From: Blepharisma japonicum
Lineage: Eukaryota > Ciliophora > Heterotrichea > Heterotrichida > Blepharismidae
Direction: 5' to 3'
NCBI GenBank assembly: GCA_949751835.1
Contig: CATKHK010000079.1
Coordinates: forward strand, 124,001 to 188,000
DNA: 64,000 nt
The position numbers were made by a program, and so were the translations under genes. Shown here one piece after another: positions 5,154 to 50,776 of the stretch (position 1 is its first letter; each line of letters opens with the position of its first letter). The notes under the pieces are model-generated. The model saw nothing but the letters and a program-made list of their open reading frames with translations, made no database searches and had not been told where the DNA came from.

Positions 5154-6455
5154 ATGGCAAACCAAAACGAAAACCAATGTTTACAACTTAACACAAAATT
5201 TGACACTCCTCTGCCGAAGCCGTTTATCCCATTCCCACCTGAAGCTTCAACTGAAATTAATCCAAAATCAATAAAAATCCCAAAAAATTCTTACTATCAA
5301 AAATGAAGGTTGTCAGATAAAGTTTTTGATGGACGTTTCTCCTCAGGCTGTTCAACACCTATGACTCCTCGAACACCAGCTACCAATCTTGACCGACTCC
5401 TAAGGGAAGTTCAAATGTCGTCTATAAAATCTGAGCATAAAAACTTCGGAGACCGCCACTTTATGAATAAAGAAAACTCTTGGTTCGATATGCCAGAAAC
5501 ACCAATTTCTCAGCAAAATTCTGTAGAAGAACTAGAGGTATGTAGATATAATCACGATTTTATTCAAGAATCCTTATTAGGAAGTGGTAATTTTGGCTCT
5601 GTATATAAATGCTTAAATAAACTTGATGGACTGCACTACGCAGTTAAACAAATAAAGACCAATTATCGGCACCAAAATATGCGAGATATTGCTTTACAAG
5701 AAGCTTATGCTTTGGCTACAAGTTCTACCTATGAAGATAACACTAACATCATACGCTATCACTCAGTTTGGATTGAGCACGATTTTCTCTACATTTCTAT
5801 GGAGCTTTGTGAATGCTCTTTAACTCAGTATATTCAGAAAAATCCACCTTCAGAAAATACCATAAGGAAAATAATGAGAGATATATGTAAAGGACTCAAA
5901 AAAATTCATGCTCATAATATTGTACATATGGATATTAAGGCTGATAATATTTTTTTTAGCTTTTCTGGAAAGTTTAAACTCGGAGATTTAGGCTTGGCAA
6001 GAATAACTACAAATCTAACAGGAGAAATCCCAGAAGGAGATGCTAGGTATTTGGCATCGGAAGTCCTTATGCACCATGAAGAAGATAGCGAGCATATCCC
6101 AGATTTAACGAAATCTGATATTTTTTCGCTTGGAGCGACTATTTATGAAATTATGAGAGGAAAACAGTTGCCGATGAATGGAAAAGAATGGCATGATATA
6201 AGAAATGGGGAATTAAAATTTGTTAATGATTTTTCTTGGGAATTAAAAGAATGTATTAGAAAAATGATGAATAAAAGTGCTGAAATTCGGCCTAGCGCTG
6301 AAGAACTTTTAGCGACATTTCTTGTGTCAGATAAAGATAGAGAAATTAAAAGATTGAAAAATTATACAAAAGTATTAAAAAGACAAATAGAAGAACTTAA
6401 ACATTGTGAAGGAAATAAAAAGAGAAAGCTTTCTCTTTGAGAAGCCAGCAATTAA
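5154..6455 (+). CDS. WEE1: WEE1-family protein kinase
   Basis: A cell-cycle inhibitory kinase of the WEE1/MYT1 group, which phosphorylates the Tyr (and Thr) in the CDK ATP loop. ATG at 5154 leads into a Pro/Ser/Thr-rich N-terminus with several TP sites. TGA is read as Trp at the position giving SYYQKWRLSD, and again near the end, so the stop is TAA 6453-6455 (433 aa). The kinase domain has GSGNFGSVY, YAVKQIK (Lys165), IVHMDIKADNIF (Asp260), GDLGLAR (Asp278) and EGDARYLASEVL. DLG in place of DFG and the EGDxRYLA motif are WEE1 hallmarks. A basic coiled tail closes the protein. No intron is seen. Confidence 0.88.
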
Positions 6456-6668
6456 ATTATTATAATTAATTTTTAAATTAGATATTTTCACATAAATTAA
6501 TAATTGTATTTATTTTAAATAGGAAAGTGAAATTAGAATTCTATTTAAATAAAAATACCACTAGTAAATTTGTTTAATTTAATAGAGTTCTTATGATTAG
6601 TGACTCAAAAAAGTCGTTTTAAGTGAAAACACTCAAGGCTTTTATATAAGAGAGATTCATTGGATTTT
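6456..6668. other. AT-rich spacer
   Basis: Short AT-rich gap between WEE1 and the 6.7-8.8 kb orphan region. No motif recognised. Confidence 0.5.
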
Positions 6669-6899
6669 ATGCCTTATAGAGGACAATTTTCAATTTTTGT
6701 GGAAAATAATGAGCTTTTAATTCCATCATACCAAGAAAAAATACCACTTAGCTTCGTTGCAAAGCTTAGAGGGCATAATTACGGCATGGGAATAGAAGTA
6801 AGCAGCATGAGCAACATCCAGACAGGTAAAGAGTATTTTATGATGATTATAGGGTCACTCTCCTATATTTTAAATGGAGAATCCCTCTTTTACAGCTAA
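6669..6899 (+). CDS. Small ORF overlapping the start of the 654-aa orphan
   Basis: ATG at 6669 opens a 76-residue frame ending TAA 6897-6899, overlapping the next ORF by 26 nt in a different frame (+1). It has reasonable amino-acid composition (VENNELLIPSYQEKIPLSFV) but no known domain. The downstream ORF begins at an ATG directly preceded by TAA in its own frame, so the two cannot be one simple reading frame. It may be the 5' part of one gene with an unrecognised splice, a separate overlapping ORF, or chance. Confidence 0.3.
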   Translation: MPYRGQFSIFVENNELLIPSYQEKIPLSFVAKLRGHNYGMGIEVSSMSNIQTGKEYFMMIIGSLSYILNGESLFYS

Positions 6900-8838
6900 A
6901 GACAAATCTACTTCTGAAAACTCTCTAAACACTTCTTTGGGGCGGTCTGGAAATTACTCTCCTCCACAGATAACTCACAATCAACCAGCTGGAGCACAAG
7001 CCTCTGAAAGCATTTCAATGGCCCCCTTAGCACCTCAAATTTCCAATCCCGCCTTAATCGGTATACCTGATCTTGATTCAAATAGTTTCAATTTGGAGAT
7101 GTTACCGACCTGCAAGTTAATGGGAGAGGGTTTGAGACAGGAACTTGTATATTTGCTTCATCCTGATTTCTTCAACGTCTCTCAAGACCAATTGATGCTG
7201 TCATTGATGGACACTATCCTCCAACTGTACATAAGGAATAGATGCGTTCTCAAAAAGTTTTTAACCTACGGTAAAGATCGAGCCGACATGACGATGATCT
7301 TGGGTTATCTTCATCAGGTTGCTCCTTTCCCGTGAATCCAATTACATCATCGTGTTGACACCATCTACAGTGCGTTCAAGAAATTCGCCCCTGGTTTTCA
7401 AGACTCAGAGTGGTTTTCACTGATGAAAATGGGTAATCAGGAACTTTTGCACTGAATGGAACATCGCCTTACCCAAACAGACGAAGCAAGACTTTGATGG
7501 AAGAATATGATAAATATGTACAACGTCACACCTGATGCTTGGAAGTGGGAAGAAGATAAATTTGAGTTAATTATGACACTTCAAAATCCCAGTTGGGCAG
7601 GCTATATCACTCTCACTAAATTACAAATCACCTCAAGGATCGCTCAGAATACCTCAAAGGAACTGGATGAAATCAAAGAGAAGTTACAAGTGCAAGCACA
7701 AAATAATAAAAAACTCACTCAAATAATCGAGGAACTTACTTCTAAGCTTGCCATCCTCCAACAAAAACTTGAAGTTCTCCAGAAACAGCAAGATGATAAA
7801 TTCAAAGTCGATTACACTTTGGCTTCCTCCTCTTGTAACAACTCTAGGAGAAACTCGGTATCCCTTGAGGAAACTTCTCGAGGACAATCTACACCGACTT
7901 TGTCCTTAAAAATGCCTCAATCCGAACCTACACTTCAAAAGAGCTCTCAATTCATTTTTGGATCCGATCTGAAGGCTTTGGCTAAGCCCGATTCACAGAA
8001 CAAGGGATTTGTCAAACCAACGGCTAGACCTTTATCTGAATGTGGTGGTCTTAAAATTAGCGCTGGCTCAGGCTTTATATCGATGAAGAAAAGTATTGTT
8101 CCCAGAGAGACAATTATCTCGAATCTCTCCTATGATACACTTAAGAGATTTGCTGGCCAAGTTCTGTACTTGGATCATAGATTTTTTGCGCTCACCTTCA
8201 AACATTTCTTAGATCCCTCTTCGCTTGAAAGTCTTTCGAGAATTCGCCCTTGAACCAAACCTTGGGTTAATAAACCGAATAGAGGAAGAGGTTATGAGGA
8301 TGACTACCCTCAAGGTCTTAGATGAAGCTTTCCTGTAAAAGAAGAACTGACTCAATGATGTGTAAAGTATTTTAGAGCCTGCATGTTTCATCCTTTTGAT
8401 GCAGAGATTCTGTTTGAAGTCATTTGAAAATTCTGCGGTTGTCCAATGTCTGCTGAAAATGACCCTGGATTGAGCTTGGTGTACTCCTATCGATACCCGA
8501 AAGTGCTTTCAATGATTACCTTGACGGGCGGCATGGAACCTGAAAAGTTTAAGGAGATTTTTAGACAATTTGGTTATGATAATGCTGTGGAGACAGATTT
8601 TGGCTGAAGAATTTGTATCAATCGTGAAAATATCAATGATTTCAGAACTGATAGAATACTCTATGTGTGGAAATCGGAACGCCTGGACATTGAGAATTTA
8701 GTTAGAACATGGAAAGATATGGGTGCTGATGACTGTGAAGTCAATTTTAAACTTCCTGTAATTAGACGTCGAGATTTGGAGCCTTGTGGTGAAACTCCAA
8801 CAATTAGAAAATCAATAAACACCTCTGGTGAAATTTAA
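6874..8838 (+). CDS. Unrecognised Trp-rich 654-aa protein (orphan)
   Basis: With TGA=Trp, one uninterrupted frame runs from ATG 6874 to TAA 8836-8838. At least eight in-frame TGA codons fall in it, beside normal TGG. Layout: a Ser/Pro-rich N-terminal 75 residues; a compact hydrophobic and helical region (about 75-215) with LLHPDFFNVSQDQLMLSL; a coiled coil (about 260-312, KLAILQQKLEVLQKQQ); a Ser-rich linker; and a Trp- and Arg-rich C-terminal globular region (about 430-654). I recognise no family. The sequence is less AT-rich than its neighbours, with many C- and G-ending third positions, which suggests high expression or foreign origin. A viral-like or transposon-derived structural protein is possible but unsupported by any motif. 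Confidence 0.75.
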
Positions 8839-8849
8839 ATTTATTTATC

Positions 8850-8899
8850 AACGACAACATATAATATCAACAACATATAATATCAACATATAATATCAT
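8850..8899 (+). repeat. Short tandem repeat after the orphan ORF
   Basis: Three imperfect copies of a unit close to ACAACATATAATATCA follow each other (two about 17 bp apart, the third shortened), starting about 12 bp after the orphan stop codon. The remaining spacer to 9299 is AT-rich with no other structure seen. Confidence 0.75.
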
Positions 8900-9299
8900 A
8901 AATGTAACTAATAACTGTTATAAATAAAAATAGGGTCTCTCTCAAACAATATAAGAGAATTTTGAATGATTTCATATATTGAAAGATCAAATTTATTGAA
9001 ATATATTTAAAAACTATAGAGTAAGATTTATTCCTAAGTAGTTTATACATAAGTATCAGTTATCTCTTGCCATTTTGTGAGAGAAGAAATATCAAGTTTA
9101 TAAAGTTTCCATAATACTTCCTTGTTTAATTAGATATACCTCTACTTCTATTAAAAATTGATTTATAGTCTATAACTAATATTTCTTTATTTATTCTCCC
9201 AAAACTTTATTATTTTTAAAAATCCAATATCTTCGCCTTATCTGTTCTTTCAAATTCCAATTTTAGTCGATTTAAACCTATCTATAATAGTGGTTAATA
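8900..9299. other. AT-rich spacer
   Basis: About 400 bp with no gene, RNA or repeat that I can recognise; it lies upstream of the P5B ATPase. Confidence 0.55.
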
Positions 9300-12200
9300 A
9301 TGAATAAAGTTGCTTATGAAAGCCCAAACTTAACTCCCACTACCGACTCTGCCTCCAAATACAACATCCCTTGCATGCCTCACCTAGACGCTATTGAAGA
9401 GTCCACAATAAAATCTATTGAGCCTTACAAGCTCCGTATCTGAGGAGAAGTTTTGTTTTGAGTCCTCGTCATATGTACAGGAGGACTTTATTACTTAATT
9501 GATCATTGGTTTCTCTGTCTGCATCTCCTTCTCCGTTATAAAAGAGTCCCAGGTTCTCAAGCCAAGATGTTAGTGATAAAAACTATGTATTTCACTGATA
9601 TTATCCATACAAGATACTTAAGTTCAAAAATCCTTGGAACTGTGCTGACATTTACTCACCATCACTTGCACTATTATTTTGATGGAAATTATTTCCAGCC
9701 TCTTTATTTCAACTCAGCTATAAATTATGATGAAATTATTGACAAGCTAAGCAGCGGGTATAATGAGGAAGAAGATGTTAATGAAAAAAGAAGCTTGTAT
9801 GGGGAGTGTCAAATTTTAATACATTTGCAGTCGTTTTTGGCACTACTTTTTGAAGAAATCAAGCACCCTTTCTACATTTTTCAGCTTTTCAGCGTTATTT
9901 TATGGTATTTTGAAGACTATTATGCCTACGCAATCTGTGTAATTGTAATTACGCTTGTTTCGTTATTTTCCTCAGTCTACCAGTCCTGAAAAAGTATGCA
10001 CGATCTCCATGATCTTGCTTTACGACACGTTGAAGTCAAAGTGAAGCGCTCTGGACAATGGATTACTATAAACAGTAAAGAACTTGTCCCTGGCGATTTA
10101 ATAGAAATCCCAAGAGGCACCGAAATGCCTTGTGATGTGATTTTAATCTCAGGTGGGGCTGTTGTTGAAGAATCTTCTTTGACAGGTGAATCAGTGCCTG
10201 TTATAAAAGACTCTTTACCTTATTTAAATGATAAAATTTACAATGTAGAAGCTGATAGGCATTTTAGCCTATATGAAGGGACAAAGGTGCTGCAGACCAG
10301 AAGCCAGGGAGGCAAGCCAGTTGTCGGAATTGTGGTGAGAACTGGGTTTTCTACTATGAAAGGGAAAATGGTGAGGTCTATTTTATTCCCAAAACCAAAC
10401 CAGTTTAAATTCACCAGAGATTCATTGAGATTTATTGGGTGTTTAGCACTTGTGGCTCTATGTGGGTTTATCGTAAGCATTTATTTATTTGTTGCCTCAG
10501 ATACTCCTTTCGATGAAGCAATTGTGCATTCTTTGGATTTAATAACTATAGCTGTACCCCCAGCCCTTCCAGCTTGTATGAATATTGGCACTGGAATAGC
10601 TCTGCACAGGCTAAAAAAGCAAGGGATTTTTTGTATATCATATCCCAGAATAAATGTGGCTGGAAGAATTGATATTTATTGCTTCGACAAAACTGGGACT
10701 TTAACTGAAGATGGAATGAATTTGTTAGGGGTAAGAGTTGCTAGTAAAGGAGCTATTAGCAGCTTATATGAATCTGCTGACCAAATTACCAAGAATAAAA
10801 GAAAATTTTTGACGTGCTTAGCGACTTGTCATTCATTAACTAATGTAGATGAAAAACTGGTAGGAGATACTCAAGACCTAGAAATTTATAAATTTTCTGA
10901 ATTTTCTTATAGAGAGCCTAAAGAAGAAGAATCTGGTGTGAAAGCGATTGTTTCATCGAATTCGAATTCTGACAACAAGCAAGAAGAGAATATAAACGTG
11001 GCCATTCTCCATATATTTTATTTTACCTCAAAAAGGAAAAGGATGGGTGTTATCGTAAAAAATCCAGAAAATAACCAATTTGAGTTTTACATGAAAGGAG
11101 CTCCTGAAATAGTCTTAGAAAGATGCAGAAAATCCTCGATACCTGAAGACATAGACTATATTCTAGATAACTATACAAGATCCGGATACAGAGTACTCGC
11201 ATGTGCTATGAATCCTCTTAATCCTATCCTTGAGGACGAAATGAAGTCCCAGAAGCTTGAAAATTTGGAACAAAACATGAAATTCCTCGGCCTCATTGTC
11301 CTACAGAATAAGCTTAAATCTCAGACGATCCCAACTATCCAACTGCTACATAAAGCTGCCATTGATACAGTAATGGCAACTGGAGACGCAGTCTTGACTG
11401 CTATTTCTGTAGCAAAAGAATGCCATATCATAAATCCAGAAATTCCTGTATATCTAGCTGAAATGGTTGATGAAGAAATTAGATGGGAAAGATTTGTTAA
11501 TAGTGCTGATGATGTGTCGAAGCAGAATATTTTGAACGAGCCACCATGGATTAATAATGAACTTGGAGGAGATTATACATTGGCGGTTACTGGGGTGGTT
11601 TTAAATGCTTATGATGTATTTGCCAAAAATGGGGATGCTAATGCTGAATATTCGATAAAAATTCTGCTAAATAAATGCAGGATTTTTGCAAGAATGTCTC
11701 CAGAGCACAAAACACTGCTGGTAAGCAGATTCCAAAGCATAGGTCTATTAGTTGGTATGTGTGGAGATGGAGCAAATGACTGTGGAGCTTTAAAAACAGC
11801 TGATATAGGAATATCACTGACAGAAGCTGAAACTTCTATTGCAGCTCCTTTCACGTCAAGTATCCCTGATATTTCATGTGTTCCTATAGTTTTAAAAAAT
11901 GGCAGATGTGCTCTGACCACATCTGTACAGTGCTTTAAATTTATGGCTGTTTATTCTATGATTCAATTCACAAATGTCCAAATTTTATACGTCCTTGGAA
12001 GTGGATTGACCAATAATGAATTTTTATCTCAAGATTTATTAACAGTCCTGCCACTAGCTATGTCAATGGGCAGCACAGGGCCTTATCCTAAATTAAGCAA
12101 AAAACAGCCAATTTCATCATTAATGTCTGTTGCTGTCATAGGCTCAGTTCTAGGACAGTCTATATTGCAAGCTATAGGAATGGTTATTGTTTATGAAGTA

Positions 12201-12677
12201 GCCGCAGCTTTGCCATTCTATAAGTCTGTAGACGACGCAGGTGACGACTATTTAAATGACGCCAATACAATTGTGTATCTTATGGCCCTGCTTGAACTTT
12301 TATCAGTCTGTGTTGCCTTTAACGAAGGAAAGCCTTGGAAAATTCCGGCTTATAAAAATGTTTACCTTATGGTTTATATTTGTTGCATATTTTCGTTGCA
12401 TATTTATTTGGTTCTTTGGCCTCCACAATGGTTGATGGATCTTTATAATGTAAGAGTTACGTAGATTACATGGTTTCCAATGTACATGAGACTTGCACTA
12501 TTAGGAATTTGGGGTGGATATAGCATAGTCGCTTATTTCTATGAGCGGTATGTGATAAAATGGATTTATAGAGGCTGCGAAAAATTGAAGAAAAGAGGAA
12601 ATAAGAGGAAAGTGGAAAATTTGACATTGGAAAAGACAGCGATCGACACCACCAAATTCATTACTACCGAAGTTTAG
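9300..12677 (+). CDS. P5B-type cation ATPase (ATP13A family)
   Basis: P-type ATPase of the P5B group; ATP13A2 and ATP13A3 of animals export polyamines from late endosomes and lysosomes. ATG at 9300, one 15-nt intron at 12450-12464, and TAG at 12675-12677 give 1120 residues. Visible in order: two N-terminal hydrophobic segments; the actuator loop with SSLTGESVPV; membrane helix 4 with VPPALPACM, the P5B signature (P5A has PPELP); the phosphorylation motif CFDKTGTLTEDGM (Asp463); YMKGAPE in the nucleotide domain; MATGDAVLTA; and GMCGDGANDCGALKTADIGI in the hinge. C-terminal membrane helices follow. TGA is Trp at YQSWKSMHDL and elsewhere. Confidence 0.93.
12450..12464 (+). other. 15-nt intron in the P5B ATPase
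   Basis: GTAAGAGTTACGTAG. Splicing joins LMDLYN to ITWFPMYMRLALL in frame and adds the last membrane segment and basic tail; otherwise translation stops at the TAG of the intron. Confidence 0.9.
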
Positions 12678-14433: not shown

Positions 14434-15198
14434 ATGGACCAAGATAAAACCTTTTCTGAAGACTCCCATCCAAGTTTTTTTAATTTGATTTACGTCAGAA
14501 AAGTACTTATAGGCCTTTTAGTTCAAGTTTTAATATCAGGCTGCATTGCTTTATCATTCTCCTTCGTCCACCCTCTCTATGAATTTGTGGAAAAACGATT
14601 CTGGCTAGCTATAGCTGTAAAAGTTGCCCTGGTGCTAACAGCAGTAGTATTATTCAGGGTAAAAGAAATAGCAAAAAGCTTAATTTTACTATCAATTTTT
14701 GCATGTCTTTTTACAATTTTTTTTGGGTCAATGTTTGGGGTGGTTTTGTCACTTTTGGATCAGAAATTTGTTGTCATGATTTTATACTTTTTTGTGTCGA
14801 TTCATGTAGTCGCTGTTTTGTATTCTATTTCAGAGAAGGAAGCTTTTAATGTACGGAATGGGATGCTTTATATGTTTTATATATCCTTGGTAAATGTAAG
14901 TGTATTTATAGTAGTGGCATCTTATGAGAAATTATTTTTGTTTTTTGTTCCTGTAGCGATTGGGCTATATGGATTTTTTTTAATTTTTCATTTCAACAAT
15001 GTAATCGAAGGAAAATCAAGAAAAACAAAAAATGACAGATATATTTTAGTCGTTTTAAGCGTTTACATAGAATTGTTTTTACTAAAATTTTATATTTTAG
15101 CATGGCTTAAAAACAAACACAAAAAGAGACTTACAAAAGAAAACTTAATCAAAGGCCCAACGAGTGAAATGAAGACTTTTAAGCCTTCACCGGTATAA
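14434..15198 (+). CDS. TMBIM/Lifeguard-like seven-helix membrane protein, copy 1
   Basis: 254 residues with about seven hydrophobic segments. The first transmembrane entry (FNLIYVRKVLIGLLVQVLIS) matches the FIRKVYxxLxxQLxxT pattern of the TMBIM/Lifeguard (BI-1) family, whose members influence ER and Golgi calcium leak and cell survival. The remaining helices are compatible in number and spacing, but the conserved Asp pair of the calcium-leak pore is not obvious to me. The basic Lys-rich C-terminus would face the cytosol. A paralogue follows 38 bp downstream. Confidence 0.62.
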   Translation: MDQDKTFSEDSHPSFFNLIYVRKVLIGLLVQVLISGCIALSFSFVHPLYEFVEKRFWLAIAVKVALVLTAVVLFRVKEIAKSLILLSIFACLFTIFFGSMFGVVLSLLDQKFVVMILYFFVSIHVVAVLYSISEKEAFNVRNGMLYMFYISLVNVSVFIVVASYEKLFLFFVPVAIGLYGFFLIFHFNNVIEGKSRKTKNDRYILVVLSVYIELFLLKFYILAWLKNKHKKRLTKENLIKGPTSEMKTFKPSPV

Positions 15199-15236
15199 TT
15201 AAATTTCCCTTTCTGAAATTTTAACGATAAATAAAA

Positions 15237-15977
15237 ATGATAAATAAAGATTTTTCTTTACCAGAAAGCCGTTCGGAGCTGGAGGAGCTTATTTATATAA
15301 GAAAAATCCTATTTGTGCTGTGGCTACAGGTATTAGGATCTTGTGCTTTCGCTGCCCTATTTTGCATAATTCCTTCTCTATCTGACTATCTGGGGTCCAA
15401 AATTTTATTGGTGTTTATTGTGAAAATAGGGCTTATTATAACTATAACAATTTTATTCAAAGTAGAATGAATTTCCAACAATTTTTTCTTGTCTGTGCTA
15501 TGCTTGATTTTAATTATACTAGAGATTGGGTCAATATTGGGGATTATTTTTTCATATTTAGGCCTAAAAAATATATTATTGATTTTATGATTTTATTTGT
15601 CAATTCATACAGTAGCATTCCTGCATGCTGCTATAGAAAGGGAAAACTATAGTAAAGAGATTGGATTTGCTGGGATTATAGGGATTTCTGTAGTAAATAT
15701 TTCAATGATTTTCTATATTGTTCCTGCATTTGTGGACTCAGAGTTGATTTGGGAAGGCTTTATTCCTGTATTTTTCGGGATTTATGGAGGGTTTCTGATA
15801 TACCATACAAGTAAGATATCGCATGGGAAACATAAAGAACTAAATAGAGAAAGATTAATATTAGGTGCGATAAGTGTTTATGCAGATTTAGCTTTAATAT
15901 TGCCTAATATGGTGAAAAAGCAATGGCAAAATAGAAATGCTGAAAATAAAAGATCAAGCCTGAATAATTATCATTAA
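15237..15977 (+). CDS. TMBIM/Lifeguard-like membrane protein, copy 2
   Basis: 246 residues, ATG 15237 to TAA 15975-15977, with TGA=Trp at two places (KVEWISNNFF and LILWFYLSIHTV). It is a tandem paralogue of the preceding gene: the same N-terminal pattern ELIYIRKILFVLWLQVLGS, the same spacing of about seven helices, and a matching segment YLSIHTVAFLHAAIEREN versus FVSIHVVAVLYSISEKEA. The C-terminus is basic. Identity between the copies is moderate, so the duplication is not recent. Confidence 0.65.
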
Positions 15978-27209: not shown

Positions 27210-27791
27210 TTAATCGTCGTCAAAATAATTATCAAGCTCTTCACTGCGTTTTAAACAGTTATACCCGAGCTCTTGGCATTTTTTACATATTTTGCTATTG
27301 TGAGCTTTTCTTCTGAGCTCTTCAATGTATCTTAAGCAGCTGTATCCAAGCTCTTTGCATTTTTCACATAAATCACTTTTGTGAGCTTTATCAGGCCCTT
27401 CACCTTGCAATGTTTTTTCTCCTAATAATCTGGTCTGGCGGTAAGGATATACATTTATTTTGCAAGAAAGGCATTGTTGTCCACAATTCGCTCAACTATT
27501 GCCGCTTGACCATGTCCTGCCGCATTCACCACAACGAAAATACCCATATGTCCTTCTCGGTCCTTGATACGGAGTCAAGCGGCCATCGTTAAACCTCGAA
27601 GGTCCGTTTCTATATCTTGAAGTATATCTCCTTGGTCTCCTGCCATTTTCACCTCTTTCTAAATTATTAGAACCTCTCTTCTCACCTGATGAACCTGAAT
27701 TTCGAAATCGATAATATCTTGTGGAAGGGTTTTCTGATCTCGAAGCTCTACTTGAGCGGGAAAATCTGTACCTACCCCTTGAAGAGCGCAT
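27210..27791 (-). CDS. ZAR1-type (3CxxC) zinc-finger protein
   Basis: 193 residues on the minus strand, TGA read as Trp once. The N-terminal ~70 residues are rich in Arg and Ser (RS/RGG-like), suggesting RNA contact. Then comes a 3CxxC zinc finger, RTYGYFRCGECGRTWSSGNS continuing to WANCGQQCLSCK and VYPYR, followed by KSDLCEKCKELGYSCLRY. This order, FGYFxCxxCxRxW, QxCxxC, NPYR, DLCxxCKxxxxSC, is that of ZAR1 and ZAR1L, which bind maternal mRNA 3' UTRs in animals. The last block is present twice (SKICKKCQELGYNCLKR). The animal binding site specificity cannot be assumed. Confidence 0.75.
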
Positions 27792-37213: not shown

Positions 37214-37759
37214 ATGGTGAAATCTCATCCGCAAAGAAAAAAACTGCCATCACCTATAACCATTAAGCCATTGAGCTTATGTGCTCAAAAAATCTCGCTC
37301 AGGGTGCTCGTGCCTTCTTGGGGACTAAAATTCAGACGCTCTTCTGACCTGATGCTTCATGAATTTTTATCACCTACAGAACATGCAAATTATCAAAAAA
37401 ATTTGTCTCTTATTGATAAAGCCTCCGAAAGAACTGATGCTTCAAATGACCCTCAAAATATTAATTTAAGCCAATCTCAATCAATCCTAGCAGAAGAAAA
37501 CCCAAAGAAAATGTGTCCAGTTTGCAGTCAATGTTTTGCATCACTCAAAGGCTTGAGCCAGCATTATGGGAAAAAGCATCGAGGAGGTCGAAGAATAGCC
37601 AAATGTGATGATTGGTTAATAAAGTTTAAAAATAAGTATGCGCTTAAAATGCATCGAATGTAGGTTCACGAGCAATCGACCAGGATAATATGCAAATTTG
37701 GTGGGAAATTTATTTATAATAAGCATCACTTAAAAATCTACCAAGAAAAAGAGCACTAA
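37214..37759 (+). pseudogene. C2H2 zinc-finger gene, broken copy
   Basis: The frame opens at ATG 37214 and gives 149 residues with one intact C2H2 finger (CPVCSQCFASLKGLSQHYGKKH), then hits TAG at 37661-37663. Beyond it the same frame continues to TAA 37757-37759 in clear alignment with the paralogue at 42.7 kb (VHEQSTRIIC against VHEKSNRVIC), the TAG standing where the paralogue has CAA (Gln). Zinc ligands of fingers 2 and 3 are lost (KCDDWLIKF, CKFGGKF). The stop plus lost cysteines indicate decay, although a one-finger protein could still be made. Confidence 0.72.
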
Positions 37760-38713
37760 TTTTTCTATCAGAAAAATTACTTTTGCAGGAAAGGTTGATT
37801 ATTTGAGTAAATAATACGAATACATCAAAGAACGAATGATTTATTTTATATTATTTACTTGAGGGAGAAAGATAATATACATTTTGCATATAATTAGGTC
37901 ATTAATAGAAATTCATATTATTAAATTTAATCAAATTTATGTTTTTTATTATAGACAAAAATATTGATATTAATTATGACTGTGTCTTCAAAATAATATA
38001 GAGAACTCTAATTTGCTTAAAACTAAAATTATCATCAATAATCTACTATATTTCATATTGAAGCCTTCTTTATTGGAGTGATACTCAAAAAAGGCCATAT
38101 TGCACCATACATTTCTAAAATATAAAAGACACACAAATTTCCAATTCTGGCTTCTCAACCTAAAATAATGAATTTATTTTATCAATTTAATATTCCAATC
38201 ATTGTCCTTTATCTGTTTTTTGTACTTAAGATGTTTTAAAAAATAGAAAAAATTTTAATTCTAATTCTTAAAATTAATTTCAGTGGCCAAATATTTTTTC
38301 TTTTAATAATAAGCGCCCAGATTTGCTCAGAAAATTTAGAGAAAATAAAGCTAGATATCTCAGCTTCAAAAATAAAAAATTTTCGCTAAAATATAAGTGT
38401 AATATGAAAAAGCTCTAATAAAAGATACCAGTGCTTGTTATTAATTCATAAAACTTATAAGAATTATTTTAAAATATTTTACGAAAGTCCGTAATATGGC
38501 ATTCTCTATTTACCATAATTTATATTTGAGTTTACAACAATTAAATGACTGAATTTTTTGAATTTTTGAATTATTTACAAAATTAAATATATAATAAGCA
38601 GTTTCAAAACATATAAATAATGCAATTCTTCAACTCTGATCAATTTTGAGTTCGAAGTCACCTAAATTCATTACATTCCAAAATTAAAATTCCCATCACC
38701 AGAATTAGTAAAT
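37760..38713. other. AT-rich spacer
   Basis: Nearly 1 kb without a supported gene. At 38620 an ATGCAATTCTTCAACTCTGA resembles the start of the phosphatase gene (ATGCAATTTCACCATTCCGA) but is in another frame. Confidence 0.5.
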
Positions 38714-39214
38714 ATGCAATTTCACCATTCCGATCCCATGAAATCAGCAACAGGGTCTCCAAGCATGCATGAAATAGATGAGCATATCTACATTGGAGAT
38801 TTCACAAGCGCTGAGGACTATCAGAATCTAAAGCGCAACGGGATCACTCATATAGTAGAACTCTTTACAGTCCCTACCCCTACGGAATTTCGAGCGGCAT
38901 TCAATTACTGCACGGTTCCAGTTCCTAGAGGAAAAAACTATACAATAATCCCAGCTATCCAAGAGTCTTTGAAATTCATCCACAAAGTTGTGTGCAGTGG
39001 AGAGAAAGTGCTGGTCCATTGTAAGTTCGGACGAAATCGAAGTGTCTCAGTAGTCATTGCCTACTATATGGCTGCGAAAGGCTGGTCTTATCGAGAAGCC
39101 TTAGATGTAATATTAAAGAAAAGAGAGTGTGCTAAGCCAAAAATCATTTTAAAGCAGCAAATTGAATCAGTCCATGAAGAATTGGCAGGGTACATTGAGC
39201 TTGATAAAGAATAA
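38714..39214 (+). CDS. Dual-specificity protein phosphatase-like
   Basis: 166 residues, intronless. The fold opens with HIYIGDFTSAEDYQNLKRNG, typical for atypical DUSPs, and holds the P-loop VHCKFGRNRSVSVVIAYYM (CX5R, catalytic Cys103 and Arg109). The preceding loop (VPVPRGKNYTII) lacks the Asp that usually acts as general acid in this family, so activity may be low. YREALDVILKKRECAKP is the usual helix after the P-loop. It would dephosphorylate Ser/Thr/Tyr residues, substrate unknown. Codon composition is richer in GC than the surrounding spacer. Confidence 0.82.
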   Translation: MQFHHSDPMKSATGSPSMHEIDEHIYIGDFTSAEDYQNLKRNGITHIVELFTVPTPTEFRAAFNYCTVPVPRGKNYTIIPAIQESLKFIHKVVCSGEKVLVHCKFGRNRSVSVVIAYYMAAKGWSYREALDVILKKRECAKPKIILKQQIESVHEELAGYIELDKE

Positions 39215-40378
39215 TATTTTTGAGTCTATTAGCATAAATGTAAAGCGTTTTATACTAAAGCATTGATTTTATAAATTTTTATAAGAAATATTTCTCCATT
39301 TATTGATTGAATAAAATTCAAATCCAGATAAAATTATGAAATTTTTAATTTTAATAAATAATCTAATAGGAATTGGTTTTATTATTTTTTGAAAGGTTGC
39401 TTTAAAAAACATTTTAAAAATTTTTGCTATTGATAAATATAATTTCAATTTTGTCATTGAAGATAAGGCCATATGCGTTTTATCAAAAAATTCGAGAACT
39501 TTATTATTTCGATTAAAATGATAAAAAATGGGCTATAAAAGAATTTAAACTGAATCTATAACTAGCTATATAACTTCATCAATTAAATATAGTGAGATAG
39601 GCAAAGATGACTTTCAGATTAGTGCTTGATATATATAATTAGACTTTACCATGAATGCATAGATATAAATATTGCGCGAAAACATATTTCTGTGAAGAGG
39701 TTGGGCAATCTTATTTTTGTCTTCTCTTTTAAATATTGTATGGCTCTCAAAAATTTTAGACCTCACAAACTGTATATAAAACTGCATTAAAGTTAAAAAT
39801 GCAGCTTGGAACTAATGTGTATAATATTTTTGAGTTGTCATGTCGAGAAAATTATATTGAAGTTATAATTTTTTTGTGTAATAAAAATATTATGAGAATT
39901 CAAAAATTATAAGAAGAATTTTTATAGCTTTTACATGATTTTTAATTTATATTTTATGCTTTCAGACATAAGCAGTACTGCAGCTAAACTTGAATAAATT
40001 AGTAGCTGATTACCTCTGCATTTATAACAATTTAGAGGAACAGTTAGACTCTATTTTTAATTACTTTTCTGCAGTAGTATTTGCATATATTAGTTTATTT
40101 CACATACTAAATCAAAATTCTATAAAAATCAAGCTTAAATCTAACGAAATTGCTCTTACAAAAATAAAAATACTGATAACAAAAGACGCTGTGTCCATTT
40201 TTTTCTTAAAAATTTTTAGCCTTATTCAGTTTTAACATTCGGACCTAGAATTGTGTTGACAAATTTCAAATATTCATATCTGCCTTGATAGAAAATAATA
40301 ATATGATAGGCTAAAATCGCACAAATTGTTTATTCGCAATAATAATTGACATATTTAATGAATAATTATAAAAAATAA
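39215..40378. other. AT-rich spacer
   Basis: Over 1.1 kb without a convincing gene. An 81-codon frame at 39990-40235 has a low-complexity AT-driven composition and no initiator ATG, and I do not call it. Confidence 0.5.
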
Positions 40379-40918
40379 ATGTTTGCGCTTTTCCATGCCA
40401 AAAAAAGCCTCCCTTCTCCAGTGTTTCTTAATTGCTCTACTGATTTGGGCTTCGAAACCTGTCCGCCAAATGGATGTGTTTATTGTGGCTTAAGCTTTAA
40501 TAGCTCTTATGAAAAAGGGCTACATTTAAATCCTTCCACAGAAACTCAAGCCTGCCATACAAACTCCAGCCAAGACCTAACATCCGAAAACTCCTTCACT
40601 AAAACACTATCTAACTCAACAGAAACGATCCCTTCAGAAAACAATTCGAATTCAGCAACAAGCCAATACTTCTGTAAAGTCTGCAATAGAGCCTTTGAAA
40701 CCTTTAAAGGCTACAAACAGCACCAAGGGAAGATGCATAGAACAAAAAGAAGAAATTTTAAATGCATGAAATGCAGCCGAAAATTTGTCAGTAAGTACGC
40801 ATTGAAGTTTCATAAGATTCAAGTCCACGAGAAAGCCTTCAAAGTGGAATGCGAACACTGCAGTAAAGTTTTATACAACAAATATCATTATCAAGTGCAC
40901 CTTAAGTCTTGCTTTTAA
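40379..40918 (+). CDS. C2H2 zinc-finger protein
   Basis: 179 residues, intronless. A Ser/Asn/Thr-rich linker (residues about 60-95) is followed by three fingers in tandem: FCKVCNRAFETFKGYKQHQG..H, FKCMKCSRKFVSKYALKFHK..H and VECEHCSKVLYNKYHYQVHL, the last ending in Cys (C2HC). A partial CxxC (CVYCGLSF) lies nearer the N-terminus. Likely a DNA-binding regulator; targets unknown. It is a paralogue of the 37.2- and 42.7-kb genes, sharing the (N/S)KYALKxHKxQVHEK block. Confidence 0.82.
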   Translation: MFALFHAKKSLPSPVFLNCSTDLGFETCPPNGCVYCGLSFNSSYEKGLHLNPSTETQACHTNSSQDLTSENSFTKTLSNSTETIPSENNSNSATSQYFCKVCNRAFETFKGYKQHQGKMHRTKRRNFKCMKCSRKFVSKYALKFHKIQVHEKAFKVECEHCSKVLYNKYHYQVHLKSCF

Positions 40919-42739
40919 CTAACTAAAAATTTAACTTATAAAAACAAGCAGGACGAAGCCAATAAAATTAAAAATTTTTTTTTTGAGTTATCGGAGACAA
41001 TCATGAAAAAATAATCCAGGCGCTGTAATTTTGGATGGGGTCGGGTATAGGAGGAAAATCGTGATCTCAAAGTTTTTTTTTATCAACCATGAGACCATTT
41101 ACAAGCAAGATTTTCCATAGTTATAATGATTTGCACATCTATAAAGAGAAGGAAATAAGTTGGCTATATTGATATGTAAGGTTTATAAGCTAAAATTGAA
41201 GCATAGATCAATTTAAGAAAGTCTAATTTTTTAAGTTGGCCTAAAAATTTAGATATAAGATTTAGAATATTCTATAGCGTTATATCTCAATATGGAAAAT
41301 AAGGATGATTTAGATTTATGAAAGGAATGCTAAAAATGTATAGCAAGAAAATTAGAAAGGACAACAAAAATTATTGAAAAAAATCAAAAGTGCTTGCTTA
41401 GTGTTGACTTTTTAAAAAAAGAATATTCTAGAATTCTGAAAAATATCAGTATAGATAAAGAGAACATCTTATAAATTTCATTGCAAAAGTGAAAAGAAAA
41501 ATACAGCACAGTTGTTTCCTATTTTTGAGTAATTATTGAGACTCTATAGTCTTGATAGTTAAGTCCATTTGTCAATTTCCAAAGACTAAAATTTCATATT
41601 TAATTTGCTTAAGTTATAAAGTATTAAACTGAAATTATCTAAGTCAAAGTGTCGAAGAAAACATTTTTCTTAAAAGTCGTTTTATATCATGATCTCAGAA
41701 GTTTTCTTAAAATTTATAAGAAATTATCATACTTTTTATTAAATTATATATGCATATAAGGCATAATATATAAATTTTCATATAATTATATCATAATAAA
41801 CGAGATTCAGATATATCTCAGCATTTTATACTTAATGCTATTTTTTGATTTTGGAATTAATTTTAGTCTTTTATTGAGCTCTATTTTTGGACTAAACTGC
41901 AAATAATACTGAATTTTGGCACATGATTATATATAAACTGTTCGTTACATATAGGCAGAGGTAAATTATTCCTTTTAATATTTTGAATTTCTAATAGAAA
42001 AATGGAAGCATTTTCATTTTTGAGTTGGCTTTTATTTCTCAAAATCACATCAAAATTAAAGAATTATTCAAAACTTAAAATTAATTAAATCTGATCTATT
42101 ATATCTAGACTTTTTTTTAGAAATAAACAAATTATTAAAAATTTTTTCTTTATACATCTTAAAATATGATTTTAGCTGACATCAAAGATTGCAACCAAAC
42201 TATGTGTGATAGGTGAGAAATTTAGTTGACATAAAAAACTGTTCTGGCAATTTCTAAAAAATTTTAAGTGAAATAAAAAAAAAAACTTGCATAAATTATC
42301 TTCAAGAACTTATTCAATAGATGTTAGCTGAAACTTCATGCTGTTAGTAAATGCTAATAGAATGCCAATAATCATATGACTTTGGCATTATAGTAATTAA
42401 TTATTTATTTCTAATATAACTTATAAGTAGCAAAATTAGAGATTTAGCTTTATTGTAGTTAGAGAAATATTAAATTCATATACTTATAGGCAAAGCCTTT
42501 GCTTATAACTGGTAGCATTGATAAATAGCTAAGAGTATAATGCTAAAAATAGCATGCTCAAAAACTTTTAAAATATTCACCGATTGTAACTCTATCCTCT
42601 ATATCTTAGCCTAAAATTGTTATAATCATCTTTATCGCATTACAGATTTCTATCTTTCAATACCTTTCTATGCCAACCAGATCGGTTAGATGTGGATTTT
42701 ACATCTTTCAATACTATTTTGTATGGTATCTTTATAAAA
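40919..42739. other. Long AT-rich spacer
   Basis: About 1.8 kb of very AT-rich DNA. The only coding-like piece is a short frame at 41292-41474, listed separately. No RNA gene or ordered repeat is seen. Confidence 0.5.
41292..41474 (+). pseudogene. Short coding-like frame broken by one TAA
   Basis: ATG at 41292 gives MENKDDLDLWKEC (Trp from TGA), then TAA at 41331-41333, and the same frame continues open for 46 more codons (KCIARKLERTTKIIEKNQ ... IDKENIL) to TAA 41472-41474. Composition is protein-like and unlike the AT-driven surroundings. It may be a recently broken small gene or a fragment. No family recognised. Confidence 0.35.
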
Positions 42740-43318
42740 ATGGAAAATATGACTATTCTAGAAAAACCTTTACCAAAAACAATATCTCTTCAAATTATTT
42801 GCAGCGATGGTTTCCAAAATGTTTTTACTTATACCTGCCCCAGATGCAGTTTAGAGTTTGCAACAATGTTCGACCTTGGTCTACATTCATTTGGCTCTTA
42901 TGAATACACATGCTTGAGATGCTTTAACCAATCTCCAGAAAATTTAGGAACCGTCAAGGATAATGAATGTTTAGAAGAAGCTGACGACCAATCACTGCAT
43001 GATTTAAATGATAATGGCCAAGTTTTACCTGACCAGCTGACAAATTATTGCGACTTATGCCAAAAAACATTTAAATCAGACAAAGGATTTCAACAGCATA
43101 TGGGGAAAATCCATAGCTCTGGATATAAGAACTCAAAATGCAACAAGTGTAAATGCAGATTTAAAAATAAGTATGCGTTAAAAATGCACAAAAAACAAGT
43201 TCATGAGAAATCAAATAGGGTAATATGCGAAATTTGTAAAAAAATTTTATACGATAAATATCATTTGAAGGTTCATAATGAAAAAGAGCATGCAGTCGAA
43301 TTACTGCCTGTTGATTAA
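42740..43318 (+). CDS. C2H2 zinc-finger protein
   Basis: 192 residues from the first in-frame ATG (42740); the frame stays open further upstream, so a longer N-terminus made by an unseen intron is possible. Fingers: YTCPRCSLEFATMFDLGLHS (degenerate), YTCLRCF, YCDLCQKTFKSDKGFQQHMG..H, SKCNKCKCRFKNKYALKMHK..H and VICEICKKILYDKYHLKVHN..H. An acidic linker separates the first and second groups. It aligns over the last three fingers with the 37.2- and 40.4-kb copies and is the best-preserved member. A nuclear DNA-binding role is inferred. Confidence 0.8.
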   Translation: MENMTILEKPLPKTISLQIICSDGFQNVFTYTCPRCSLEFATMFDLGLHSFGSYEYTCLRCFNQSPENLGTVKDNECLEEADDQSLHDLNDNGQVLPDQLTNYCDLCQKTFKSDKGFQQHMGKIHSSGYKNSKCNKCKCRFKNKYALKMHKKQVHEKSNRVICEICKKILYDKYHLKVHNEKEHAVELLPVD

Positions 43319-46569: not shown

Positions 46570-47754
46570 ATGGAGGAGCCTAAAGACTTTAAAGAGCCTA
46601 AAAAGCTACCTTATGGTATGATCATAAAATTTGATGACTTATGAACTCCTGAATCTCAGCTAAAAACTTCATGATACGGCGCAATTCGGAAAAACGAGCA
46701 AAAAGATAAATGCTTTATTTTAAAACTCAACGGCCGATTTGCCTATGCTAACGAAAAACTTGAATTTACTCCAAATATTAACGAGGATGCTTTAGCTTTG
46801 TCTAAAAAATTAACAAATGACTCATATCGCCAGTTAAAATGGGCAAACAGAATTTCCCTGCTAGCTTCATACTGAACCAACATGACAAACTCAATTAACA
46901 GCTTAACACCCCAAGAATTAGAAGAAGAAAAAGAAAAGCTCAGAAAATACATCCCAGACGCCATCATAAGCAACCAACACTTTTTTTCTGAATTGCTGAA
47001 AAATATAAACACCATGGACTACCCCAATTACAGCTGGTTCAAGCCTATCAAGCCAAGGCCAGCAATTTTATTTTATTTAGCTGATAAAGATAAATTAAGC
47101 ATACAGACTGTATATGCCCAATATAAAAATTCTCCTTATCCTAATAGAGGAGACTATGACGATTTGCCTGAGGAAGTTAAAGCGGAATATGAGGAAATTT
47201 ATAGCCTTGACAAAATTAGGTATCATGCAGAATTAATGAAATGCTCAAATGCACAGTATTTGAATTATTTAACAGAAGTCATTTCTTTGGGAGATGTGTT
47301 TAAATGTCCGTTAGCAAGAGGCTTAGGAGAAAACACAAGAATGAGAAAAAAAGTATCGGTTTTTATGCAGATTAAAATAGAAAATTGGATCAGCACACTT
47401 ATGAGAAAAATGGAAGAATTGTTTAGGAAGGCGCGATGAGGAAACAGAAAAAACTCAGTTTTAAAGCTGGCAGTTAATGACTGCCTTACTAATTTCCCAA
47501 AAGATGCAACCAGTCCTATTATACATTATACGATGTGTGGAGAAAATTTGAATGAAAATAAGCCTGTGCTTTATATAATTGAGCAATCAATTTTCCATCA
47601 AGAATCTTGGCTGGAAGCGAATGAAAATACTGAGGAGCCTGCGAATTTTTTGAGTGATCCGCTGTTTTTGCCGTATATGTGTGTGAATTTAGGACATGGA
47701 ATTAAAGCGAAATTGTATGAAATAGAAGATGCTTTATTTGACATTGGACGGTAA
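46570..47754 (+). CDS. HMG-box-like protein, tandem copy 1
   Basis: 394 residues with several TGA=Trp codons (FDDLWTPESQLKTSWYGAIR). The N-terminal domain (about 10-60: LPYGMIIKFDDLW, CFILKLNGRFAYANEKLEF) is shared with the next two genes. The centre resembles an HMG box: FKPIKPRPAILFYLADKDKL, then DYDDLPEEVKAEYEEIYSLD, then KIRYHAELMKCS. A C-terminal region (VENW/IENWISTLMRKMEEL, IHYTMCGENLNENKP, LYIIEQSIFHQESW) is also shared. HMG boxes bind or bend DNA; sequence-specific function is unknown. Stop TAA 47752-47754. Confidence 0.72.
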
Positions 47755-48160: not shown

Positions 48161-49411
48161 ATGACTATCAATTTACCTTACGGTATGAGTATTGATATTG
48201 ACAAATTATGATCCTCAGACTCCAAGCTGAAATACCTATGAAGTCACTCTATCCGTAAAAATGCAGCCGATACCAAGTGTTTCGTTTTCAGAGTAAATGG
48301 CAGATTTTGCTATGCTAATACCAAGCTTGAGATCACTTCAAATATTAATAACCAGGCTTTATCACTTTTCCGAGAATGAGAAAACGGAGGAGACATCGTT
48401 ACAAAATGGCAAAAAAAAGCTGAAAAAACCATTGAATATTTAAAATCCAATCTTAAGCCTTGAGTTTCAAAAGAAGATAGGAACAAACTTAATTCGTTTG
48501 TCCCAGAGGCGATTCTCAAAGATAATAATTTTGTGAGAAAACTGCTTAAGACTATCATAGGACGAGATAACAGAGTGTACAGTTTATTCGAGCCAATTAG
48601 ACCTAGAGTACCTCTTATGTTTTATATTGCTGACAAATCCAAGTCAACTCTATGTGATTTTTATTTCCAAGTCCTCAGTGGTTATCATTCTATTAAAGCA
48701 GAATACGACGCTTTGCCAGTCCACGTTATTGAAGCCTACAAAAAAGCCTACAAATTAGACAAGCTCCGCTATGAAATAGAAATCTTGAAATGCTCAAACG
48801 TAAGGTACCTCAACTTCTTATCTGATGGCCTCTGCCTTGCCGAAGTCTATAAGAGCTATGCAGGCCCTCCCAGCACCCAAAGCGATAACTGCATAGTCTG
48901 AAAAATTTCTTTATTTATTTCTATAAAAATCGAAAACCTTATTCGTGCTTTAATTGGAAACCTCAAAGAATTCAATTGATGCGCCCATCAAAATATGAAA
49001 AAAGAGCAAGTCCTGCAGTACACCATTAATAAATTCATAAAAAATTGCCCTAAAGATGAAAATGAGCAGATAATGCATTATACAATATGCTTAGAATTAG
49101 TGTTAGAAAATTATCCTGAGCTGTGTATAATAGAACAGTCAATTTGGCATATGGAATCATGATGTGAAACTGAGGACGAATCTATGGAAATAATAGACTT
49201 GACAAATGTACCACTTTCTTCTCCTTATATGTGTACAAAGCTAGGGCGAGGAATTAAAGCAAAATTGTATGAAATTGAAGATATGCTTCTTGAAGGGAGT
49301 TGCATGAAAACCTCGCTTTGGGTTGATGATTATAAGTTCATTTTTTCGAATTTTATGAATATCACTGAACTGCCAGAGCCAGATAATAATCATCCTATTA
49401 TAATATTATAA
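48161..49411 (+). CDS. HMG-box-like protein, tandem copy 2
   Basis: 416 residues, ATG 48161 to TAA 49409-49411, with many TGA=Trp codons. It follows the domain order of copy 1: LPYGMSIDIDKLW, CFVFRVNGRFCYANTKLEIT, FEPIRPRVPLMFYIADKSKS, EYDALPVHVIEAYKKAYKLD, KLRYEIEILKCSNVRYLNFL, LCIIEQSIWHMESW and LGRGIKAKLYEIEDMLLEG. It has an extra ~35 residue C-terminal tail (VDDYKFIFSNFMNI). It lies 407 bp downstream of copy 1 on the same strand. Function as for copy 1. Confidence 0.72.
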
Positions 49412-49588: not shown

Positions 49589-50776
49589 ATGACCTTAAGA
49601 CTACCATACGGCCTCACGGTCAACTTCGAAGAAATGTGAACAACTGAATCTCAGCTCAAGCATTTATGACACAAGGCAATCCGCAAAAATATGGGCATGA
49701 GAAAATGCTTCGTTTTTCGCCTCAATGGAAAATACGCCTATGCCAACGCAAAAGTAAAGCTTACCCCCGACATTAACACCCAATGCTTATCTTTGTGTAA
49801 AAAATGGGAAAATAGCTCAGACCGCCAAACAAAGTGAACAAATAAAGCCCACTCAGTTGCAAATCATTTTATTAAGCTGAGGGAAAGGACGTGGAATGAA
49901 CAATCTATCAAGTCTAATGAAGAGAAAAAGCGGCTTAGAACGTATATCCCAGAAATAATTCTTGACAACCCAAACACTTTAGGTACACTCTTGAAATCGA
50001 CCATGTGCAAGCCGGGAGAAAATTACAGTTTTTTTAAACCAACCCCAGCCAGAGCACCACTTATATATTATATAGCCGATAAATTCGGCTTATGCCTCTA
50101 CAATACTTTTTTTCCGTACCGAGACTATTACCATAATGCCAAAAAAGAATACGAAACTCTCCCCAAAGAATTCAAAGCACTTTATATCAAAGCTAACGAA
50201 CTCGACGCTTTAAGACACCAAGCAGAAACCATGAAATGTGCCAGCGCCAGCTTCTTGAATTTTCTGAACCACTCTATCTCCTGACGAGAAATCTACAGAA
50301 GGCCTTTTTCCACTATTTTTGGTGAAAATTTGCGGTCGATGAGCAAAATCAACGTTTTTATGCCAATCAAGGTGGAAAATTGGATCAGTGCCGTAATTAA
50401 AAAAATTGATAATTTATGCAAAGATGGAGCCTGGAGAAACAAAAAAAATAAAGTCCTGAAAGATGTTGTCAATGATCTAGTAAAAAGGTACCCAAAAGAT
50501 GAAGACGCACCATTAACACATTACACTCTTTGTGGAGAAAATCTGAATAATTATACCCCGACACTTTTTGTGATCGAGCAGTCTATTTGGCACCAAGAGT
50601 CATGGATGGAATCGTCAGAGCTTATAGGAGACGTCGTGGACATGCAGGATTTCCCACTTACAAGACCTTATAGCAATGTAAACTTAGGCTATGGGATCGA
50701 GGCAAAACTGTATAAAATTGAAGACGTGCTGTTTGATAGCGGATATATGAAAAAGATTAGGGAAGTAGACGATTAA
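49589..50776 (+). CDS. HMG-box-like protein, tandem copy 3
   Basis: 395 residues, ATG 49589 to TAA 50774-50776. Same order as copies 1 and 2: LPYGLTVNFEEMWTTESQLK, CFVFRLNGKYAYANAKVKLT, FKPTPARAPLIYYIADKFGL, EYETLPKEFKALYIKANELD, ALRHQAETMKCASASFLNFL, INVFMPIKVENWISAVIKKI, THYTLCGENLNNYTP and FVIEQSIWHQESW. Only about 175 bp separates it from copy 2. The domain shared by all three besides the HMG-like part is not one I recognise, so the family seems lineage-specific. Confidence 0.72.

Follow-up and report, generated by a model that had tools for sequence, protein, structure and literature searches.

A single-copy 654-residue coiled-coil protein of Blepharisma japonicum without a match in the family libraries searched

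An intact open reading frame of 654 codons in the Blepharisma japonicum genome (6874..8838, + strand) encodes a protein of about 75.4 kDa, with a pI of about 8.1, that matches no family in any library we tried. We give an even chance to the explanation that it is a real, single-copy, lineage-specific gene of the host ciliate, whose soluble product is most likely an oligomeric scaffold or adaptor. The frame lies in a window of 64,000 nucleotides, the whole stretch of DNA analysed here, which corresponds to positions 124001-188000 of contig 79 in an assembly of 45,185,585 bases and 224 contigs; all feature positions are those of the window. By Pfam, the gene at 5154-6455 encodes a protein kinase and the one at 9300-12464 a P5-type ATPase, which confirms that the frame lies between genes of these two kinds, where the initial annotation had placed it. 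The short tandem repeat said to follow it is also present, as an AT-rich array of CAACATATAATATCA units at 8846..8898 (+), just 3' of the TAA stop codon.

The reading frame itself is not in doubt. Translation is open from ATG to TAA when TGA is read as Trp, and eight in-frame TGA codons join eight TGG codons in specifying the tryptophans. The sequence places a TAA (6871-6873) as the in-frame codon directly 5' of the ATG, and an earlier start in this frame is therefore impossible without splicing or a frame shift. When 6860-8838 was shuffled (500 mononucleotide shuffles), the longest run without a stop had a mean length of 108 codons and reached 200 at most; 654 codons are far beyond this expectation, and the long, intact, host-code frame described earlier is real and spans exactly 6874-8838. 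Codon preference weakly favours this frame. Across sixteen 120-nt windows (6936 to 8855), the frame scores above zero in 14, and in 13 neither of the other two forward frames outscores it; its score is negative in the windows starting at 7296 and 8136, and another forward frame scores higher in those starting at 7176, 7416 and 8136. The score averages 0.065 per codon, a level that 19 of 94 other genes in the sample do not exceed. GC content in 300-nt windows, some of which overlap adjoining genes, is 0.36-0.43 inside the frame and 0.22-0.24 past its end.

Compositional bias of the frame is real but mild. For comparison we used 112 non-overlapping ORFs of 150 or more codons, the 654-codon frame counted in, from the window and 18 sampled genome stretches (20 drawn, less two from contigs of insufficient length; two of those used are below 10 kb); these ORFs were called mechanically, and some may not be genes. 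The frame ranks 14th for GC (0.401), 12th for GC3 (0.375), 15th for Trp content (2.4%) and 9th for excess codon deviation, and its codon-usage fit is the 7th lowest. Among the 62 ORFs of 300 or more codons, the corresponding ranks are 9 for GC, 5 for GC3, 6 for Trp and 3 for excess deviation, with the 2nd lowest codon fit. These ranks put the frame in the tail of the host range, not outside it. The distinct base composition reported in the initial annotation thus survives as a deviant tail, most evident in codon fit, but not as a departure from the sampled host range. High expression can be rejected as the cause of the codon usage, because the bias is unlike that of 12 tubulin/EF genes (correlation 0.14), which serve as a rough high-expression proxy with GC3 values from 0.24 to 0.49 and include two that look mitochondrial by their N-termini.

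The protein divides into five regions, all read on the + strand. By composition, residues 1-63 (6874..7062) are rich in Ser, Thr, Asn, Gln and Pro (51%) and probably disordered. Residues 64-250 (7063..7623) are predicted to be helical from their composition and a single-sequence AlphaFold2 model, and are followed by a coiled coil at residues 255-325 (7636..7848), a polar linker at residues 326-422 (7849..8139), assigned by composition, and a mixed alpha/beta C-terminal region at residues 423-639 (8140..8790), assigned by composition and a second single-sequence model. The helical and C-terminal regions contain 8 Trp each, those of the latter falling within residues 423-632; this even split does not bear out the Trp-rich C-terminus that had been proposed. 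The coiled coil, by contrast, stands as first described: a simple custom score finds the heptad pattern strongest at residues 263-300, and coiled-coil Pfam profiles match the piece spanning residues 255-325, all below their cut-offs. RRNSV at residues 325-329 presumably fits a kinase A-type site, a motif that also arises in 69 of 1000 shuffles. Hydropathy over 19 residues peaks at 0.96, so that no segment is strongly hydrophobic, and the protein lacks a C-x(2-4)-C motif. Structure prediction, put forward in the initial annotation as a check, could be run on both regions, with low confidence: the model of residues 64-265 contains only helices and loops (mean pLDDT 40), and that of the C-terminal region is mixed alpha/beta (mean pLDDT 38). 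Neither model has a Foldseek match in the PDB at E <=0.001. As both models are poor and were made without relatives, Foldseek matches and misses alike mean little.

Searches with the sequence give a consistent picture. Pfam finds nothing above its curated cut-off in the whole protein, the matches below cut-off lying only in the coiled coil; residues 64-265 and 180-250 give no Pfam match, and C-terminal pieces give one weak match to CFAP68 (E 0.07-0.1, below cut-off). NCBIfam likewise has no match above cut-off, and those below it are all in the coiled coil, with none for the C-terminal region. PADLOC returns no match, and the best PHROG match has an E value of 0.11. A search of PDB chains up to E 10 yields none for the whole protein or for its N-terminal part; for the C-terminal part it yields a single chain, at chance level (E 1.3). 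A prokaryote genome scan finds no relative. The lack of a link to any family, asserted from the start, thus holds in every library tried, where orphan means without a match in these libraries and the eukaryotic genome covered is the ciliate's own assembly.

Such a protein is not exceptional in its surroundings. We scanned 28 window proteins with Pfam, from 42 listed ORFs of which some overlap, and 12 of the 28, the 654-residue protein among them, have no match above the curated cut-off in this one window, which is not a genome sample. Three of the 12 have a match at E <=0.001 that misses its cut-off, and nine of the 28 have none at that level. In ciliates at large, PMC10810533 gives 5,525 lineage-specific families, 30% of which occur in two or more of four ciliate categories. 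Because unmatched proteins are common in the window and lineage-specific families are many in ciliates, an unmatched gene here is unsurprising; and because its composition is not separable from that of host ORFs, calling it the best single candidate for something undescribed was an overstatement.

Other features of the genome and window can be noted. The CCCTAACA telomere repeat, searched as a three-unit pattern, has 77 forward and 91 reverse matches in the assembly, and the pattern read backwards has 0. Among the matches listed, the repeat falls within the first 430 bases of contigs C11, C36, C47, C69, C78, C80 and C89, and on C5 it stops one base short of the contig end. The repeat agrees, as do the code and the AT-richness, with what PMC9942806 describes for Blepharisma stoltei: CCCTAACA telomeres, UGA as a Trp codon and a compact, AT-rich macronuclear genome of 41 Mbp and 66% AT. 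Within our window, three tandem Trp-rich paralogues of ~400 aa (46570-47754, 48161-49411 and 49589-50776) are 41-44% identical to the first and have no Pfam match above cut-off. Their family has six genome places in all; outside this contig, two members share 58% identity with the third gene and one shares 46%. Codon bias of the 654-codon frame correlates at 0.47 with that of this third gene (49589-50776), and a relation of the 654-residue protein to the tandem family is rejected by hhalign (probability 0.1%). The window also contains three C2H2 zinc-finger-like ORFs in 37214-43318 (starting at 37214, 40379 and 42740; the second covered by the Pfam scan and the others judged by eye), two adjoining Bax inhibitor-1-like membrane proteins at 14434-15977 (Pfam Bax1-I, the first below and the second above cut-off), and an 81-bp tandem repeat of 1.9 copies (27235-27389) within the gene for a zinc-ribbon protein.

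Three other explanations deserve consideration. A 76-aa ORF in a different frame (6669..6899, +; from translation) shares the first 26 nt of the 654-codon ORF, and may be a small gene, a chance run or the misread 5' part of the same gene. That the start is wrong, with both ORFs belonging to one gene through an unrecognized intron, a frame shift or an assembly error, strikes us as unlikely, even though GC, at 0.20-0.27 further out, already climbs to 0.36 around position 6650, before the ATG of the 654-codon ORF, and the upstream frame stays open for ~116 codons in the host code with a weakly positive coding score of 0.091 per codon. The 76-aa ORF is single copy in the genome, but its GC content (0.35) is reached by 25 of the 58 isolated small ORFs, a set that counts it in, and its coding score by 40 of 439 runs without a stop in spacers and 25 of 592 in the wrong frames of genes. 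A join through a tiny intron is rejected: none of the four 15- or 16-nt GT-AG stretches in 6440-6900, inspected by hand, connects the two frames in a way that clears the TAA. It is quite possible, though we hold the idea tentatively, that the protein instead belongs to a known eukaryotic family but has diverged from it, and is missed because ciliate sequences evolve fast. Very diverged members escape HMMER profiles, and residues ~544-626, read by hand, suggest elements arranged as in an RRM; in the model this stretch is strand-helix-strand-strand-helix, at a pLDDT of 33-56 for the block and with the fourth strand missing. Nevertheless, Pfam and NCBIfam give nothing above cut-off and the PDB nothing better than E 1.3, whether for the whole protein or for pieces; Pfam assigns no RRM family to residues 536-635. 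The Nup35-type RRM profile (PF05172) finds seven places in the genome at E up to 10, none of them at this locus, and identity as an RRM of this type is accordingly unsupported.

The remaining explanation, that a mobile-element or virus gene (gag-like, retrotransposon ORF1-like or endogenous viral) was domesticated as a single host copy, we consider improbable. It would accommodate the deviant codon usage, the overlapping ORF upstream and a succession of helical region, coiled coil and possible beta-alpha-beta-beta-alpha region (from the model with mean pLDDT 38) that faintly resembles gag or LINE ORF1 proteins. However, an own-genome protein search (six frames, no introns, only the best candidates scored) retrieves the protein itself as the sole convincing match in the 45.2-Mb assembly; of the two other places listed, one (E 0.18) falls in the coiled coil of a 708-aa ORF and the second has an E value of 2.0. 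Copy number, also named initially as a check, is thus one full match and no second copy. ORF-spanning repeat pairs in 6440-9310 are short or AT-rich (12-27 nt at 70-92%) and unconvincing as element termini, although a decayed insertion could lack repeats. The Retrotrans_gag profile (PF03732) has two weak places in the genome, neither at this locus, and Pfam matches of pieces of the protein are all below cut-off and either of coiled-coil type or to CFAP68. A CCHC zinc knuckle is a feature of gag, though absent from some gag proteins, and CCHC-type spacing is not present here. Scans of IMG/VR with the complete protein and its C-terminal part, which use peptide patterns and reach close relatives only, yield no relative, nor does a tblastn search of phages; the N-terminal model, a poor one, has no Foldseek match at E <=0.001 in a library of viral models. 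Among the literature titles listed for Blepharisma and viruses or for ciliates and endogenous viral elements, a topic-level search, none concerns such a gene. Known Blepharisma non-LTR elements are multi-copy (>30) and carry endonuclease and reverse-transcriptase genes, according to PMC9942806. The suggestion of a captured element gene therefore finds no support in the own-genome search, gag profile, repeats, viral contigs or phages within the reach of these scans, and an ancient single-copy capture is similarly unsupported. That a captured virus or retroelement gene now encodes a new oligomeric protein that binds nucleic acid or forms a shell, its folds absent from present libraries, is very improbable indeed.

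Returning to a lineage-specific host gene, the closest parallels are heterotrich lineage-specific gene families, which likewise comprise unmatched, intact, single-copy host genes; PMC10810533 describes lineage-specific ciliate families as mostly confined to shallow taxonomic ranks. Generic coiled-coil scaffolds, represented by golgin-like and Sec3-like profiles, share the heptad pattern at residues 255-325, but these Pfam matches are below cut-off and confined to the coiled coil, and homology is therefore not demonstrated. LINE ORF1 and gag proteins are at most loosely similar in the order of regions, and differ in that the 654-codon gene is single copy, with no gag-profile match, CCHC-type motif or visible element structure. 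Several observations do run against our preferred explanation, namely codon usage in the deviant tail, a modest coding score, the rise in GC 5' of the ATG and structure models of low confidence. Taken as a whole, the initial annotation was right about an intact ORF with a coiled coil and no family in the libraries tried, and went too far on a distinct composition and a Trp-rich C-terminus, while its suggestion of element capture is unsupported.

Expression, oligomerization, domain boundaries, partners and function of the protein we infer from its sequence, and it is the coiled coil that suggests a role as scaffold or adaptor. In such a role, the coiled coil (residues 255-325) could self-associate and thereby hold together the N-terminal helical and C-terminal alpha/beta regions, each of which could bind partners. 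A new ciliate-specific structural protein, the other proposal made at the outset, is possible on the same evidence of the coiled coil. For annotators of this genome, the question of where the N-terminus lies is a useful one. As matters stand, the gene is one more among the unmatched host genes of heterotrichs. It would gain in importance if a structure tied the protein to an element or virus, or if its orthologues proved to be deeply conserved, in which case it would be a heterotrich-wide protein of unknown fold.
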